Below, piece after piece: positions 34,003 to 46,725 of a stretch of DNA of 64,000 nt. The position numbers were made by a program, and so were the translations under genes. Each line of letters starts with the position of its first letter. Positions within the stretch are counted from its first letter, which is position 1. The stretch is from Elusimicrobiaceae bacterium. Lineage in GTDB: Bacteria > Elusimicrobiota > Elusimicrobia > Elusimicrobiales > Elusimicrobiaceae. The stretch covers positions 1 through 64,000 of the forward strand of contig JAGCWX010000012.1 in the NCBI GenBank assembly GCA_017961585.1, written 5' to 3'. The notes below the pieces were generated by a model that was given only the letters and a program-made list of their open reading frames with translations, was not told the DNA's origin and did not search any database.

Positions 34003-34333
34003 AGTTTTATTGTACTATTTTAGCATTTCAAAGTTCCCGCAAATTTACAAGCGATTTTGCATTTTTGAAAAAACAAGCAAAAACGAACGATATCAATTCC
34101 CTACAACTTAGCGCTCCAAAAAATCTAACAATGGCACTAAACTTCATTTTTTGGCCTCAATTTTGCAAAAAATTTAACAAAAGACCTTAAATTTTAGGGG
34201 CAACCGAGCCGAATCCTTCGTCGGAAAACAGGGGTTATCAACCGGGTATGACATATAATTAACATATATGACATATCTATTGACATAAAATTAAAAATTA
34301 GTTACTATATGTCTATAGCTGGGGATAACCCCT
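34003..34333. other. 331-bp AT-rich intergenic region with short repeats
   Basis: No gene is seen. Contents are the leaderless mutY promoter at the left edge, a TGGCACTAAAC copy near 34133 that recurs near 35239, the left arm of a 12-bp inverted repeat (34228-34239), three TGACATA repeats (near 34248, 34269 and 34281), and the promoter of the next gene. The mutY promoter aside, everything recognisable lies in the right-hand 110 bp. Confidence 0.6.
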
Positions 34334-34335
34334 GT
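34228..34335 (+). promoter_or_regulatory. Promoter bracketed by a perfect 12-bp inverted repeat
   Basis: TTGACA (34280-34285), 17 bp, TACTAT (34303-34308) is a good sigma70-type promoter. ACAGGGGTTATC (34228-34239) and its exact complement GATAACCCCTGT (34324-34335) flank it, and the right arm covers the GTG start. GGGG-ATAA-CCCC (34321-34332) can also fold as a hairpin over the start. TGACATA repeats lie between. The layout suggests autoregulation by looping or translational masking (inference). Confidence 0.6.
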
Positions 34336-34927
34336 GGAAAACGTAGCCAATTTAATAGTAAACTTTATGAACAATAGCATGGACAAAGAAACACTAAAAA
34401 TGCGATTTAAACTCCCCAATGGAGAAGAATTTGAAGCCCAGGGCCCGCAAGAATTTATTGAGGCCCAGCGTAATTATTTTCTAGCTTTAATTGGCCAGCA
34501 AACACTCACTGCTCCCAGCAGTCGTTTGCCCAATACACCGTCACAATCCGATCGTCCGGTTCCTCATTTCTTTGCCGCGGCCAACTCACGGGCCGCACAA
34601 GTTTCCCCATGGGAGCGCCTTTTCCGAGTGCAGGAACACACACTTGTATTGCGCCGGAAAGCCAAAATTTCGCCTCAAGATACCGCTATTCTTATTTTAG
34701 CGGCAGCCCGGGACATCTTCAAGCAAAGCGCCTATAGCGCTCTAGAGTTATCCCGCTCTCTCAAAGCCCTAGGCATTGAGGGGGGGCGATTGGACCGTTT
34801 GTTGGTGGGGGAAATACAAGCCGGCCGAATGACAGCCCAAGGTTCCAAAAGAGGCCGCACTTATCAATTGAGCAATGAGGGACTAGCCCATGCTTTTGTG
34901 CTAGCCCACAAATTATTGGGAGAATAA
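34334..34927 (+). CDS. Unknown protein with probable C-terminal winged helix, beside dif
   Basis: This protein has 197 residues from GTG at 34334; an ATG at 34367 is an alternative, and neither has a good ribosome-binding site. The N-terminal part (MRFKLPNGEEFEAQGP) could be a small beta unit, then there is a Pro-Ser linker. The C-terminal 75 residues (AILILAAARDIFKQS, SALELSRSLKALGI, LDRLLVGEIQAGRM, GSKRGRTYQLSNEG) have the helix-helix-wing pattern of a winged-helix DNA-binding domain with a basic wing. I do not recognise the family. Its location 163 bp from the dif-like site and its bracketed promoter suggest a terminus-linked or self-regulating DNA-binding protein (inference). Confidence 0.65.
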   Translation: MENVANLIVNFMNNSMDKETLKMRFKLPNGEEFEAQGPQEFIEAQRNYFLALIGQQTLTAPSSRLPNTPSQSDRPVPHFFAAANSRAAQVSPWERLFRVQEHTLVLRRKAKISPQDTAILILAAARDIFKQSAYSALELSRSLKALGIEGGRLDRLLVGEIQAGRMTAQGSKRGRTYQLSNEGLAHAFVLAHKLLGE

Positions 34928-35089
34928 CCTCCCCTTTTTCAAAAAATCAATATTTCAAGTAGAAAATATATAAATTAAAAAATATTTATATTTTAAGCAT
35001 TTTTATTTTTGCATATTTTCTTAATATTTACAGGATAAAATTTTACAAATAAATATGGCCCGGGGGGACTATTTGTCTTTATATATTTA

Positions 35090-35117
35090 ACTAACGAGAA
35101 TATATATTATGTTAATT
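35090..35117 (+). other. dif: Candidate dif site for XerCD chromosome-dimer resolution
   Basis: The 28 bp read left arm ACTAACGAGAA, centre TATATA, right arm TTATGTTAATT. From memory, the B. subtilis dif arms are ACTTCCTAGAA and TTATGTAAACT with the same centre (23 of 28 identical). The right arm differs from E. coli dif (TTATGTTAAAT) at one base. The flip of G-run polarity exactly here supports the assignment. Confidence 0.85.
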
Positions 35118-43707: not shown

Positions 43708-44667
43708 TTATATACCGGCTTTGGCGGCTATTTGTTTTAAAATCTCAGCCGATTTTTTGAGGGCTGCGGCCTCGCTCTCGCTCAACGTAATGGGCATTTG
43801 CACCTCAATTCCATTCCTACCTACTACGGCAGGCATACTTAATGTAATATCATCTATGCCAAACGCCCCGTGCATCCGGTTGGAAACCGGCAAAACAGAC
43901 TTTTCATCCCGTACAATACATTCACAAATACGCTTGACCGCCATCGCAATGCCGTAGTAGGTGGCTTTTTTGCGCTCAATAATTTCGTAAGCCGCATTTT
44001 TAACGTCATCGGCAATTTTTTTCATAGCCTGTTGATGATTAAAATGGCCGCGCAACTCACAAAACTTATTAATAGGCACGCCAGCTACGTTGGCAGTACT
44101 CCATACGGCAATTTCACTGTCTCCATGTTCCCCCACAATAAATGCGTGCACACTGCGGCTATCTACCCCCAAGTGATTGCCCAAAATTTCGCGAAAGCGA
44201 GCCGTATCCAGCACGGTGCCAGAACCGATCACCCGGTTTTCCGGCAAACCACTTAATTTAAGGGCAGCGTGCGTAAGTACATCAACCGGATTGGCAACCA
44301 CTAGCAAAATTCCTTTGTAATTACGTTTGGCAATTTCGGGGATGATGGACTTAAAAATGTTCACATTTTTTTGCACTAAGTCCAGGCGGGTTTCACCCGG
44401 TTTTTGGTTGGCCCCAGCGGTAATCACAATAATAGCGGCATCGGTAATGTCATCATACGTGCCGGCATAGATTTTCATCGGGCGGGCGTAGGCCTCCCCG
44501 TGGGAAATATCCATGGCCTCTCCTTCGGCTTTTTTGTGATCCACATCCACTAAAACCATTTCACTAAATAGCCCACTTTGCATGAGCGCAAAGGCGCTGG
44601 CCGAGCCTACAAATCCGCAGCCGATAATGGCTACTTTCCGGTCGTTAATTCCACAAGGATTATTCAT
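43708..44667 (-). CDS. ldh: L-lactate dehydrogenase
   Basis: This 319-residue NAD-dependent enzyme interconverts pyruvate and L-lactate for fermentation. It has NAD-binding VAIIGCGFVGSASAFAL, the specificity loop AGANQKPGETRLDLV with Gln at the position that is Arg in malate dehydrogenases (so lactate), VANPVDVLT, GSGTVLDTARFR and catalytic His in GEHGDSE. AGGAGGG precedes the ATG and a TATAAT box (minus strand, + 44688-44693) lies 20 bp upstream of it, overlapping the preceding terminator region. Confidence 0.95.
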   Translation of the reverse strand: MNNPCGINDRKVAIIGCGFVGSASAFALMQSGLFSEMVLVDVDHKKAEGEAMDISHGEAYARPMKIYAGTYDDITDAAIIVITAGANQKPGETRLDLVQKNVNIFKSIIPEIAKRNYKGILLVVANPVDVLTHAALKLSGLPENRVIGSGTVLDTARFREILGNHLGVDSRSVHAFIVGEHGDSEIAVWSTANVAGVPINKFCELRGHFNHQQAMKKIADDVKNAAYEIIERKKATYYGIAMAVKRICECIVRDEKSVLPVSNRMHGAFGIDDITLSMPAVVGRNGIEVQMPITLSESEAAALKKSAEILKQIAAKAGI

Positions 44668-44687
44668 ACGTTTTCCCTCCTTCTTAT

Positions 44688-44693
44688 ATTATA
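44688..44693 (-). promoter_or_regulatory. ldh -10 box
   Basis: TATAAT on the minus strand, followed by AAGGAGGG and the start codon. A clear -35 box is not seen because the fadL terminator occupies that position. Confidence 0.55.
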
Positions 44694-44698
44694 GAAAA

Positions 44699-44728
44699 CA
44701 AAACCCCCGCCGTTAAGCAGGGGTTTTT
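44699..44728 (-). terminator. Intrinsic terminator of the fadL-like gene
   Basis: On the minus strand AAAACCCC...GGGGTTTT (one internal mismatch) with T runs. It overlaps the presumed -35 region of ldh. Confidence 0.75.
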
Positions 44729-44745
44729 AATTAGTTTAAGTTTAT

Positions 44746-46017
44746 TTAAAACTTATACCCAACGGTAAAGGCAAACATATCTCCCCCACCGGTTCCGTAA
44801 CGCATAGCTGCATTACCAAATTGATCATTGCTATCACCTTTCAAGTGACGTCCAAAGATGTGAGCGTAGGCAAAATCCGCGCTCCAGATTTCCCCTTTAT
44901 AACCGAAACCAACGCTACCAATGTGACGATCATCTACGGGAACAAGTGTATCCATAGCGTGTTCGTTAATCGGGGATTTGTCATACACATAGCCAGCGCG
45001 AGCAAACCATTTAGGAATAAATTGATATTCCACACCAAAGTTTACACGAATGGTATCTTTATATTCTTTGCGGTTGTGGATCGTCGGTGCACTTTCATCA
45101 TCCTTATACTCAATCGTAATCTGATCATATGAGCTCCACATCGTTGCGACAGCTCCTAATTCCATCGTCCATTTTTCGTCCGGACGGAAAGCCACACCGA
45201 TGGAAAAACTGTCCGGCAATGTAATAGAACCCTTTGCGTCAGAATCACGCACGGCCTCTTTCAGCGTAGGGGGATATACGCTCATATCAGGAGCATAGAT
45301 AACTCCGCCATTGGAAGTGTCAATATAACCATTTAAATTTTGTTTTACTTTGGTACGATACATAGCCCCTAAAGACCATTTCTCTGCCCATTCAGGACGA
45401 TAAATCAACGAGAAGTTCCCCCCCCAGCTGACTCCATCACCGTGAATTTCATAAGTACTTCCAGCTGGAACAGGTCCATTAGACTTTTGTGTAAAATCAA
45501 TGGTCATAGCTTCCAAGCCCATGGCCAAAGAAAGTTGGTCATTGGCTTTAATGGCAATGGTAGGGGTAAAGGAAAAAGTTTCCAATTTCACTTTGTACGC
45601 TAAATAGCTGCCGTACCAAGTATCATGATTTTTATAAGTGCCACCCAATCCATAGCGTGAAAAACCACCTAATCCAAAACTAATATCATTGCTCCATTTA
45701 TGAGTGATATAAAAGTTAGGCAACGTCCAGATATCACGTTGAAGTTCACGTGATTCAAATTTTCCGGTATACGGATTTTGAATGGAGGTTTTAGCATTAG
45801 CAGAAACGACAGTTACCCCAACCTGCGCTTGAGTTCCTTCCAATTCCGTAATCAAAGCCGGGTTGGTGGCCAAAGAGGCCGGCTCAGCCGTAGAGGCCAT
45901 TACAGCCCCGCCCATGGCGGTAGAACGGCCGCTATATTCGTACAAGGCAAACCCAGCCCCATACGTTAGGTTCGCACCTAAACCGCTTACTAACGCGGCT
46001 AATAATAATTTTTTCAT
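44746..46017 (-). CDS. FadL/TodX (OMPP1) family outer-membrane transporter
   Basis: This 423-residue beta-barrel has a signal peptide (KKLLLAALVSGLGANLTYG) and the FadL N-terminal plug: AGFALYEYSGRSTAMGGAVMASTAEPASLATNPA (residues about 21-54), the diagnostic G...A.....PS..NPA pattern. Strands alternate to a C-terminal aromatic end (AFTVGYKF). The family imports long-chain fatty acids or other hydrophobic compounds across the outer membrane; the substrate here is unknown. GGAGAATT precedes the ATG. It is monocistronic. Confidence 0.92.
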   Translation of the reverse strand: MKKLLLAALVSGLGANLTYGAGFALYEYSGRSTAMGGAVMASTAEPASLATNPALITELEGTQAQVGVTVVSANAKTSIQNPYTGKFESRELQRDIWTLPNFYITHKWSNDISFGLGGFSRYGLGGTYKNHDTWYGSYLAYKVKLETFSFTPTIAIKANDQLSLAMGLEAMTIDFTQKSNGPVPAGSTYEIHGDGVSWGGNFSLIYRPEWAEKWSLGAMYRTKVKQNLNGYIDTSNGGVIYAPDMSVYPPTLKEAVRDSDAKGSITLPDSFSIGVAFRPDEKWTMELGAVATMWSSYDQITIEYKDDESAPTIHNRKEYKDTIRVNFGVEYQFIPKWFARAGYVYDKSPINEHAMDTLVPVDDRHIGSVGFGYKGEIWSADFAYAHIFGRHLKGDSNDQFGNAAMRYGTGGGDMFAFTVGYKF

Positions 46018-46037
46018 AATTCTCCTATTAATACACT

Positions 46038-46064
46038 AAAAATCCCCGCTTACCTATCGCGGGG
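46038..46064 (-). terminator. Intrinsic terminator, minus strand
   Basis: CCCCGC / GCGGGG stem (46044-46049, 46059-46064) followed on the minus strand by ATTTTTAG. Confidence 0.8.
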
Positions 46065-46071
46065 GTACAAC

Positions 46072-46725
46072 TTACTTATTCAAAACAGCTAATTTATCCT
46101 TGGATACTTTACCAAAATAAGAGCTGGGATAACTACCCAAAATTTGTTGATACGTCTCTTGCGCAGCTTGCTTTTGCCCGGCCAGTTCTTGGCTCATGGC
46201 CAAGGTAAAATAGGCCTGCGGTAAGGCAAAGCTCTTGGGGTTCTTTTCAATAAAATTTTGCAAAACCTCAATGGAACCCTGATAATCCTGGGTGGCTTGG
46301 CGCGCCGCCCCCAGCGAAAGCACTGCATCCGTACGAAGAATTTCGTTGGAAGAATTTAACAAAGGCGCGTATACATCCGCTGCTTGAGCGTAATTTTCAC
46401 CCGCGTAAAGTAAATCCCCCTTAAGCAACTGGGCATACTGAGCGGCTAAAGTATTAGGGAATTGCTGGGCCACGCTGTCTAATGCCGTAACTTCTTGGGG
46501 ATTATTCATTACAGCCAATTGGGCTTTGTAATAGGCCGCCCAAGAATTTTCTTCTACAGAGCGTACATGAGCCGCATAGGCATACCCAATTACGCCGGCC
46601 AACACCAAAATCACCACCACCGTAAGTACGGCTGTTTTGTGGGCTTTTACATAGTTTATGATGCTGGATAAAAAGGAAAGGAGCAAATCCTTCTCTTGAG
46701 GTTGAACAGTTTGTTTTGTGGTCAT
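46072..46725 (-). CDS. YfgM-like membrane-anchored TPR protein
   Basis: This 217-residue protein has a cytoplasmic N-terminus, one membrane helix (AVLTVVVILVLAGVIGYAYA, about residues 34-53) and four to five TPR-like repeats in the periplasm. VEENSWAAYYKAQLAVMNNP after the helix is typical of the YfgM/TPR_21 family, which associates with SecYEG and periplasmic chaperones. The start is 7 nt after a minus-strand TATAAT (+ 46733-46738) and has no ribosome-binding site, so the mRNA is probably leaderless. Divergent from the gene at 46788. Confidence 0.85.
   Translation of the reverse strand: MTTKQTVQPQEKDLLLSFLSSIINYVKAHKTAVLTVVVILVLAGVIGYAYAAHVRSVEENSWAAYYKAQLAVMNNPQEVTALDSVAQQFPNTLAAQYAQLLKGDLLYAGENYAQAADVYAPLLNSSNEILRTDAVLSLGAARQATQDYQGSIEVLQNFIEKNPKSFALPQAYFTLAMSQELAGQKQAAQETYQQILGSYPSSYFGKVSKDKLAVLNK

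Follow-up and report, generated by a model that had tools for sequence, protein, structure and literature searches.

Why does an unnamed gene for a predicted DNA-binding protein sit next to dif in the genomes of Elusimicrobia, and what might its product do there? We address this question in a 64,000-nucleotide stretch (the window) from an Elusimicrobiaceae bacterium (GCA_017961585.1, JAGCWX010000012.1), which corresponds to contig C32 of our genome G000 (1.49 Mb, 36 contigs). A preliminary description of the window had suggested that the gene encodes an autoregulated, terminus-organizing protein. We find that the gene, a conserved operator on its own promoter, and dif stay together in relatives. 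We give about an even chance to the reading that the family, inherited vertically in class Elusimicrobia, is a replication-terminus protein that regulates its own gene, is linked to DnaA, and acts locally near dif. The locus has the following features:

34228–34239: left arm of a perfect 12-bp inverted repeat; exact, not conserved as such
34235–34243, + strand: left DnaA-box-like site TTATCAACC, 2 mismatches to TTATCCACA
34249–34287, + strand: operator array, with TGACATA at 34249, degenerate TAACATA at 34260, TGACATA at 34269, and TTGACATA at 34280–34287
34280–34308, + strand: predicted promoter, with TTGACA at 34280–34285, a 17-bp spacer, and TACTAT at 34303–34308; overlaps the operator
34307–34313, − strand: inverted half-site ATATGTC over the −10 region; nearly invariant in alignment A3
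34320–34328, − strand: DnaA-box-like site TGGGGATAA, 1 mismatch
34324–34335: right arm of the inverted repeat; exact, not conserved as such
34333–34341, − strand: DnaA-box-like site TGTGGAAAA, 1 mismatch; the supposed GTG start lies inside
34367–34927, + strand: unnamed conserved gene, predicted DNA-binding; start at ATG 34367 or 34379
35090–35117, + strand: dif, ACTAACGAGAATATATATTATGTTAATT; same strand as the gene

Linkage of the Gene to dif

How constant is the association between the gene and dif? In the window, the first base of dif lies 163 bp past the last base of the stop codon, as first described, and ACTAACGAGAATATATATTATGTTAATT is the sole match in the genome to the dif pattern of relatives at up to three mismatches. 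Among the first 53 relatives, 49 carry dif downstream of the gene and on the same strand, at 41–1107 bp; the four without a fit are G045, G036 (1.6 kb of flank), G052 (contig stops after 195 bp), and G001 (doubtful match). Forty more genomes, of other genera and families, gave dif at 29–1188 bp with at most five mismatches in 32 cases; a dif with six to seven mismatches was found in G180, G182, and G184, and the contigs of G181, G101, and G107 stop within 1 kb. Over all 93 relatives inspected around a match, dif is downstream, on the same strand, and less than 1.2 kb away in 81, with 3 more marginal and 9 misfits, 4 of which are on contigs that stop within 1 kb of the gene. The check first suggested, whether the gene stays beside dif in relatives, thus came out positive. 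The pair is also present in G203, a single 3.8-Mb contig, and in G105. A dif site had been predicted earlier in one Elusimicrobia genome (PMC3025954).

In the single-contig genome G102 (1,643,562 bp), the sign of the GC skew, taken at sample points, flips between 845 and 911 kb; the gene is found at 904.5 kb and dif at 917.2 kb. From the joint presence of the gene, its sole strong operator, and dif at the skew switch, we infer a local action at the end of one replichore. What of genomes that lack the gene? Most of the 20 gene-negative genomes in families f1 and f2 lack both gene and dif, and the absence is therefore probably an assembly gap, true loss being possible. Two of them, G021 and G112, have a convincing dif, with about 260 bp and 790 bp, respectively, left on the gene side before the contig stops.

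The surroundings of dif hold further observations. In G122, dif is 5.9 kb from the gene, beyond a microvirus-like insert: approximately 4.5 kb (L240, 3984–8540) between a decayed and an intact dif, beside the family gene, with open reading frames (ORFs) that resemble, as judged by eye, a microvirus capsid, a replication protein, and a pilot protein. The insert is a probable dif-integrated single-stranded DNA phage in Elusimicrobiota. G001 carries two inverted dif-like sites amid phage-like genes (L291; C90:26576 and 27071). Several similar, secreted-looking ORFs lie between gene and dif in G102 (L287, 904–919 kb) and may account for the 12-kb distance there. Finally, a G-run followed by an (A)GTATTTGTC-like sequence precedes dif by approximately 25–45 bp on its left in most f1 genomes (35050–35075 in the window), possibly a KOPS-like, FtsK-orienting element.

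Operator, Promoter, and DnaA Boxes

Which elements upstream of the gene are conserved? Upstream regions of the homologues inspected contain GACATA half-sites, spaced at 10–11, 20–21, or 30–31 bp, over TTGACA-17-TATTAT-like promoters. TGACATA occurs 3.45 times per 260 nt upstream in f1 and 2.74 times in f2, vs. 0.018 and 0.031 in controls taken from other stretches of the same loci, and the distances between half-sites peak at 10/11, 20/21, and 30/31. Outside these two families, the looser pattern TGNCNTAW reaches 3.84 vs. 0.079 in controls. The consensus of 29 aligned operators comprises TTGACATATGTCAA and TATTATATGTC (G018, missed by the search pattern, was dropped from this alignment). The window itself has the three TGACATA copies that had been placed between the repeat arms (34249, 34269, and 34281), and this is the only place in it with three such copies within 60 bp. 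Since the conserved operator overlaps the gene's own promoter, autoregulation is probable, judging from the DNA.

The inverted repeat had looked like the more striking element. Its arms at 34228 and 34324 are exact, and it is one of just two with arm starts more than 90 bp apart among 28 overlapping perfect 12-bp inverted repeats in the 64 kb (perfect arms, spacer ≤120), most of which are short hairpins. As an operator it was rejected: an exact arm occurs in just 1 of 29 loci from other genomes (L018 among L010–L038), and the expectation that the repeat would be conserved along with gene and dif fails. The elements truly conserved upstream are the half-sites and the DnaA-like boxes. The arms overlap DnaA-box-like sites, which keep their place in relatives and explain the arms. 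A third exact arm copy in the genome, at 59782, is taken as chance because it falls inside a long ORF.

DnaA boxes with at most one mismatch were found in 33/38, 19/23, and 30/31 upstream regions, vs. 166/1988, 52/1400, and 18/1170 controls, and boxes of this type also cluster around dnaA. Of the f1 regions, 28/30 have a reverse box (≤2 mismatches) 49–51 bp past the last ACATA half-site, and the left box, where present, is usually 16 bp ahead of the first half-site. The boxes of the window are themselves imperfect, with 1, 1, and 2 mismatches.

These boxes also bear on where the gene begins. The 197-codon ORF counted from GTG (34334–34927) exists, and the right arm does span that GTG, which lies within a DnaA-like site. 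However, the match to the family profile begins at 34379 and homologues start just a few codons ahead of the conserved KIRFKLPNGEEFEAEG motif; GTG 34334 is therefore probably not the start, and ATG 34367 or 34379 is likelier.

Operator Copy Number

Is the operator unique in each genome? A model built from the 29 operators picked out a single strong site (E ≤ 2.3e-15) in all 10 of the gene-bearing genomes scanned and no strong site in 2 gene-negative ones. Paired half-sites with strict 10–11-bp spacing are not clustered elsewhere in the 10 genomes, where scattered single half-sites are possible. Near dif, half-sites are not clearly enriched overall, one subclade excepted. A single strong operator per genome argues against both a many-site terminus organizer and a two-sided fork trap. 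Of the preliminary proposal, probable autoregulation by an operator over the promoter is supported, and the many-site organizer is not.

One weak operator-like site (E 0.045) was detected at 866 kb in G102 (L330, 866216–866303). It reads GACATATG...TATAATATGTC, has a pilin-like gene on one side and a divergent gene on the other, and is approximately 38 kb from the family gene.

Protein Family and Fold

How widespread is the family, and what kind of protein is it? A protein search found homologues in 54/61 genomes, the window's own included. A profile built from 52 members found them in 175/340 Elusimicrobiota genomes (118 of the 191 good ones); among the matches listed are families f1, f2, f7, f10, f11, f13, f14, and f15, all in class Elusimicrobia. 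A motif-limited, alignment-based genome scan returned 109 loci, and all 80 that were kept are labeled with names beginning in Elusimicrobi or just "bacterium"; a genome scan using the single window protein gave zero matches. In a tree of 92 proteins, sequences grouped by taxonomic family, the 6 groups requiring just 5 label changes—the minimum possible—and the family was apparently inherited vertically, as far as the protein sequences tell. G001 (weak match, E 0.004) was excluded from the alignment, motif counts, and tree, and G036, whose gene is broken at the 3′ end, from alignment A1 and the tree.

The impression that no family name applies was upheld: the window protein has no match in Pfam (E ≤ 10) or NCBIfam and none beyond noise in PHROGs. 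When the 52 members were scanned against Pfam at E ≤ 1, no terminator family was among the 25 of 27 families shown. PadR was matched by 2/52 members (E 0.11) and MarR_EPS once (E 0.03), which does not place the family in MarR/PadR; a single Rep3_N match (1/52, E 0.1) likewise does not make it a Rep relative.

The members share a layout of an N-terminal beta-beta-alpha domain, a variable linker, and a C-terminal winged helix. Their alignment gives the N-terminal motif K-[IL]-R-x-K-x-P-x-G-[EA]-EFEAEG and, in the winged helix, invariant R-x-D-R and G-x-[K]-R. Alignment A4 comprised the window protein and 35 of the 80 loci. AF2, run with 81 sequences, predicted the structure with a mean pLDDT (predicted local distance difference test) of 84.8, mostly above 90 over residues 81–186, and placed helices and a wing at residues 96–186. 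The best matches of that segment in the PDB are AF1382 (Z 11.2), RosR, STIV F93, and MarR types. We are thus confident in the predicted winged-helix C terminus, which had been suspected from the start. The N-terminal domain, predicted separately as beta-beta-alpha, has no PDB match better than E 0.9. RTP is absent from the rows shown by the fold searches, which carries no weight against a likeness to RTP.

Neighboring Genes

Do other genes accompany the pair? mutY is near the gene in 26/38 f1 genomes and in none outside f1. The left-neighbor family is found within 6 kb in 3/38 f1, 22/23 f2, and 28/32 class genomes. In the window, a three-gene block (43708–46725) lies to the right of dif on the opposite strand; in relatives it lies to the left of the gene, apparently because the region around the terminus was inverted while gene and dif remained side by side.

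Comparison with Known Systems

How does this arrangement compare with described ones? The genes tus and rtp are autoregulated via a ter site in their promoters (PMC10331603). The family resembles RTP of Bacillus subtilis in its winged helix (fold class only), its place at the terminus, and the predicted site in its own promoter; it differs in having no sequence match to a named family, no opposed sites found, short phased direct repeats with DnaA boxes, and a position immediately beside dif. With the type I Tus/ter fork trap it shares a predicted self-regulatory site in the promoter of a terminus protein, whereas here a winged helix is predicted, the array is single, and the class is Elusimicrobia. 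The XerS-difSL and XerH-difH modules link a recombinase gene to dif (PMC2731167). Genetic linkage to dif is common to both, but the linked gene here encodes a predicted DNA-binding protein, and two recombinases of XerC/D size lie elsewhere. Iteron plasmid origins place repeats and DnaA boxes beside the gene of a DNA-binding protein; the phased repeats with DnaA boxes beside our gene are alike, but they are chromosomal, apparently vertical, at the terminus, and without Rep homology. Finally, the MarR/PadR-like and archaeal winged helices (AF1382, RosR, and STIV F93) are the best fold matches (Z 9–11), yet identities are 6–23%, and the family has an extra conserved N-terminal beta-beta-alpha domain. 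No paper describing the gene or its association with dif turned up in a search whose coverage of subscription journals was thin.

Proposed Role and Alternative Explanations

What would the protein do beside dif? We propose that the winged-helix protein, probably as a dimer, recognizes two elements that lie over the −35 and −10 of its own promoter, the helically phased GACATA half-sites and the TTGACATATGTCAA palindrome, and would thereby repress that promoter. DnaA may occupy the fixed-register boxes on both sides and so tie expression to the replication cycle. The protein–operator complex would have a local action where one replichore ends. Its likeliest form is a terminus complex at a single site that slows forks or times termination next to dif and resembles the self-regulated tus/ter and rtp/Ter units in layout. 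The terminus role is suggested by the constant company of dif and by analogy to tus and rtp. Several points weigh against this proposal. A repressor that binds its own promoter alone would give an identical DNA picture, and neighbors are partly conserved, such that part of the gene–dif linkage may be plain synteny. G045 has 9.5 kb of downstream sequence without a recognizable dif, and dif is 12 kb from the gene in G102 and about 8 kb in G103. Exact TGACATA is rare in families other than f1 and f2 (mean 0.74), the left forward box (≤2 mismatches) is present in just 18/30 f1 regions, and none of the 10 genomes has a second, opposed operator of the kind found in a classical two-sided fork trap.

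The serious rival is a plain self-repressor with no terminus function, in which adjacency to dif is conserved synteny and the DnaA boxes are ordinary; we consider it possible, though clearly short of probable. A solo repressor fits every DNA feature, including the only strong site on its own promoter and the partly conserved left neighbors of f2 and other families, except the reason for staying at dif. The left neighbor switched to mutY in f1, and the 43708–46725 block lies on the other side of dif in the window's genome, yet gene and dif stayed together in both cases; nor is any other regulated gene apparent near the operator. A replication fork barrier is a stronger form of the reading we prefer: as a functional analogue of RTP or Tus with a type I layout, the array would arrest one fork before dif. 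The RTP-like winged helix, the gene's location at the terminus, and an array in its own promoter that always points toward dif speak for it, and type I traps in which a lone ter serves to repress tus as well offer a precedent (PMC10331603). With no opposed second site in 10 genomes and no kinship to a Pfam terminator family among the 52 members, we hold it to be doubtful. A little more doubtful still is a replication-completion switch, in which duplication of the locus and the state of DnaA set the protein level and the protein in turn influences either DnaA or dif and division. What suggests it is the interlocking of DnaA boxes with an autoregulated winged-helix operator at the last-replicated locus beside dif. 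Such a switch would be the chromosome-terminus counterpart of datA, a DnaA-controlling locus; no equivalent was found in the literature searched.

The remaining alternatives are less credible. The iteron-like repeats and DnaA boxes might derive from the initiator region of an ancestral plasmid or phage, domesticated together with dif, and the element in G122 indicates that dif is a live integration site. But searches at E ≤ 0.1 of 72,556 plasmid (PLSDB) and 50,697 phage records turned up no relative, a motif-limited IMG/VR scan likewise gave none, Rep matches did not rise beyond noise, and the tree looks vertical, all of which makes a domesticated replicon or dif-integrating element improbable. 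PepA and ArgR serve as Xer accessory factors at cer, and the constant linkage and orientation of gene and dif could reflect a similar role at dif, or the protein could take the place of the FtsK gamma domain. The gene–dif distance ranges from 29 bp to 12 kb, however, and this variation implies no fixed complex with dif; half-sites are barely enriched between the two (in the order, 0.58 TGNCATA per kb vs. 0.39), there are two recombinases the size of XerC/XerD, and an FtsK-gamma-like C terminus, always below the curated cutoff, occurs in 46/117 genomes, the window's own included. We regard this role as quite unlikely. Least credible of all is a MatP-type organizer of a terminus macrodomain with many scattered sites, which shares the terminus location but is disfavored by the lone strong operator in 10/10 genomes and the lack of clustered paired half-sites elsewhere.

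Implications

The chromosome-terminus systems described so far come from a handful of model phyla. In class Elusimicrobia, at least six families have kept an unnamed protein family together with its sole strong operator and dif, and the DnaA-box-like sites stand in fixed register. If the protein does act at the terminus, it would represent an independent way of bringing replication to an end or of timing it; if it merely regulates itself, the locus would still provide a precise terminus marker and a test case for the coupling of DnaA to the end of replication.
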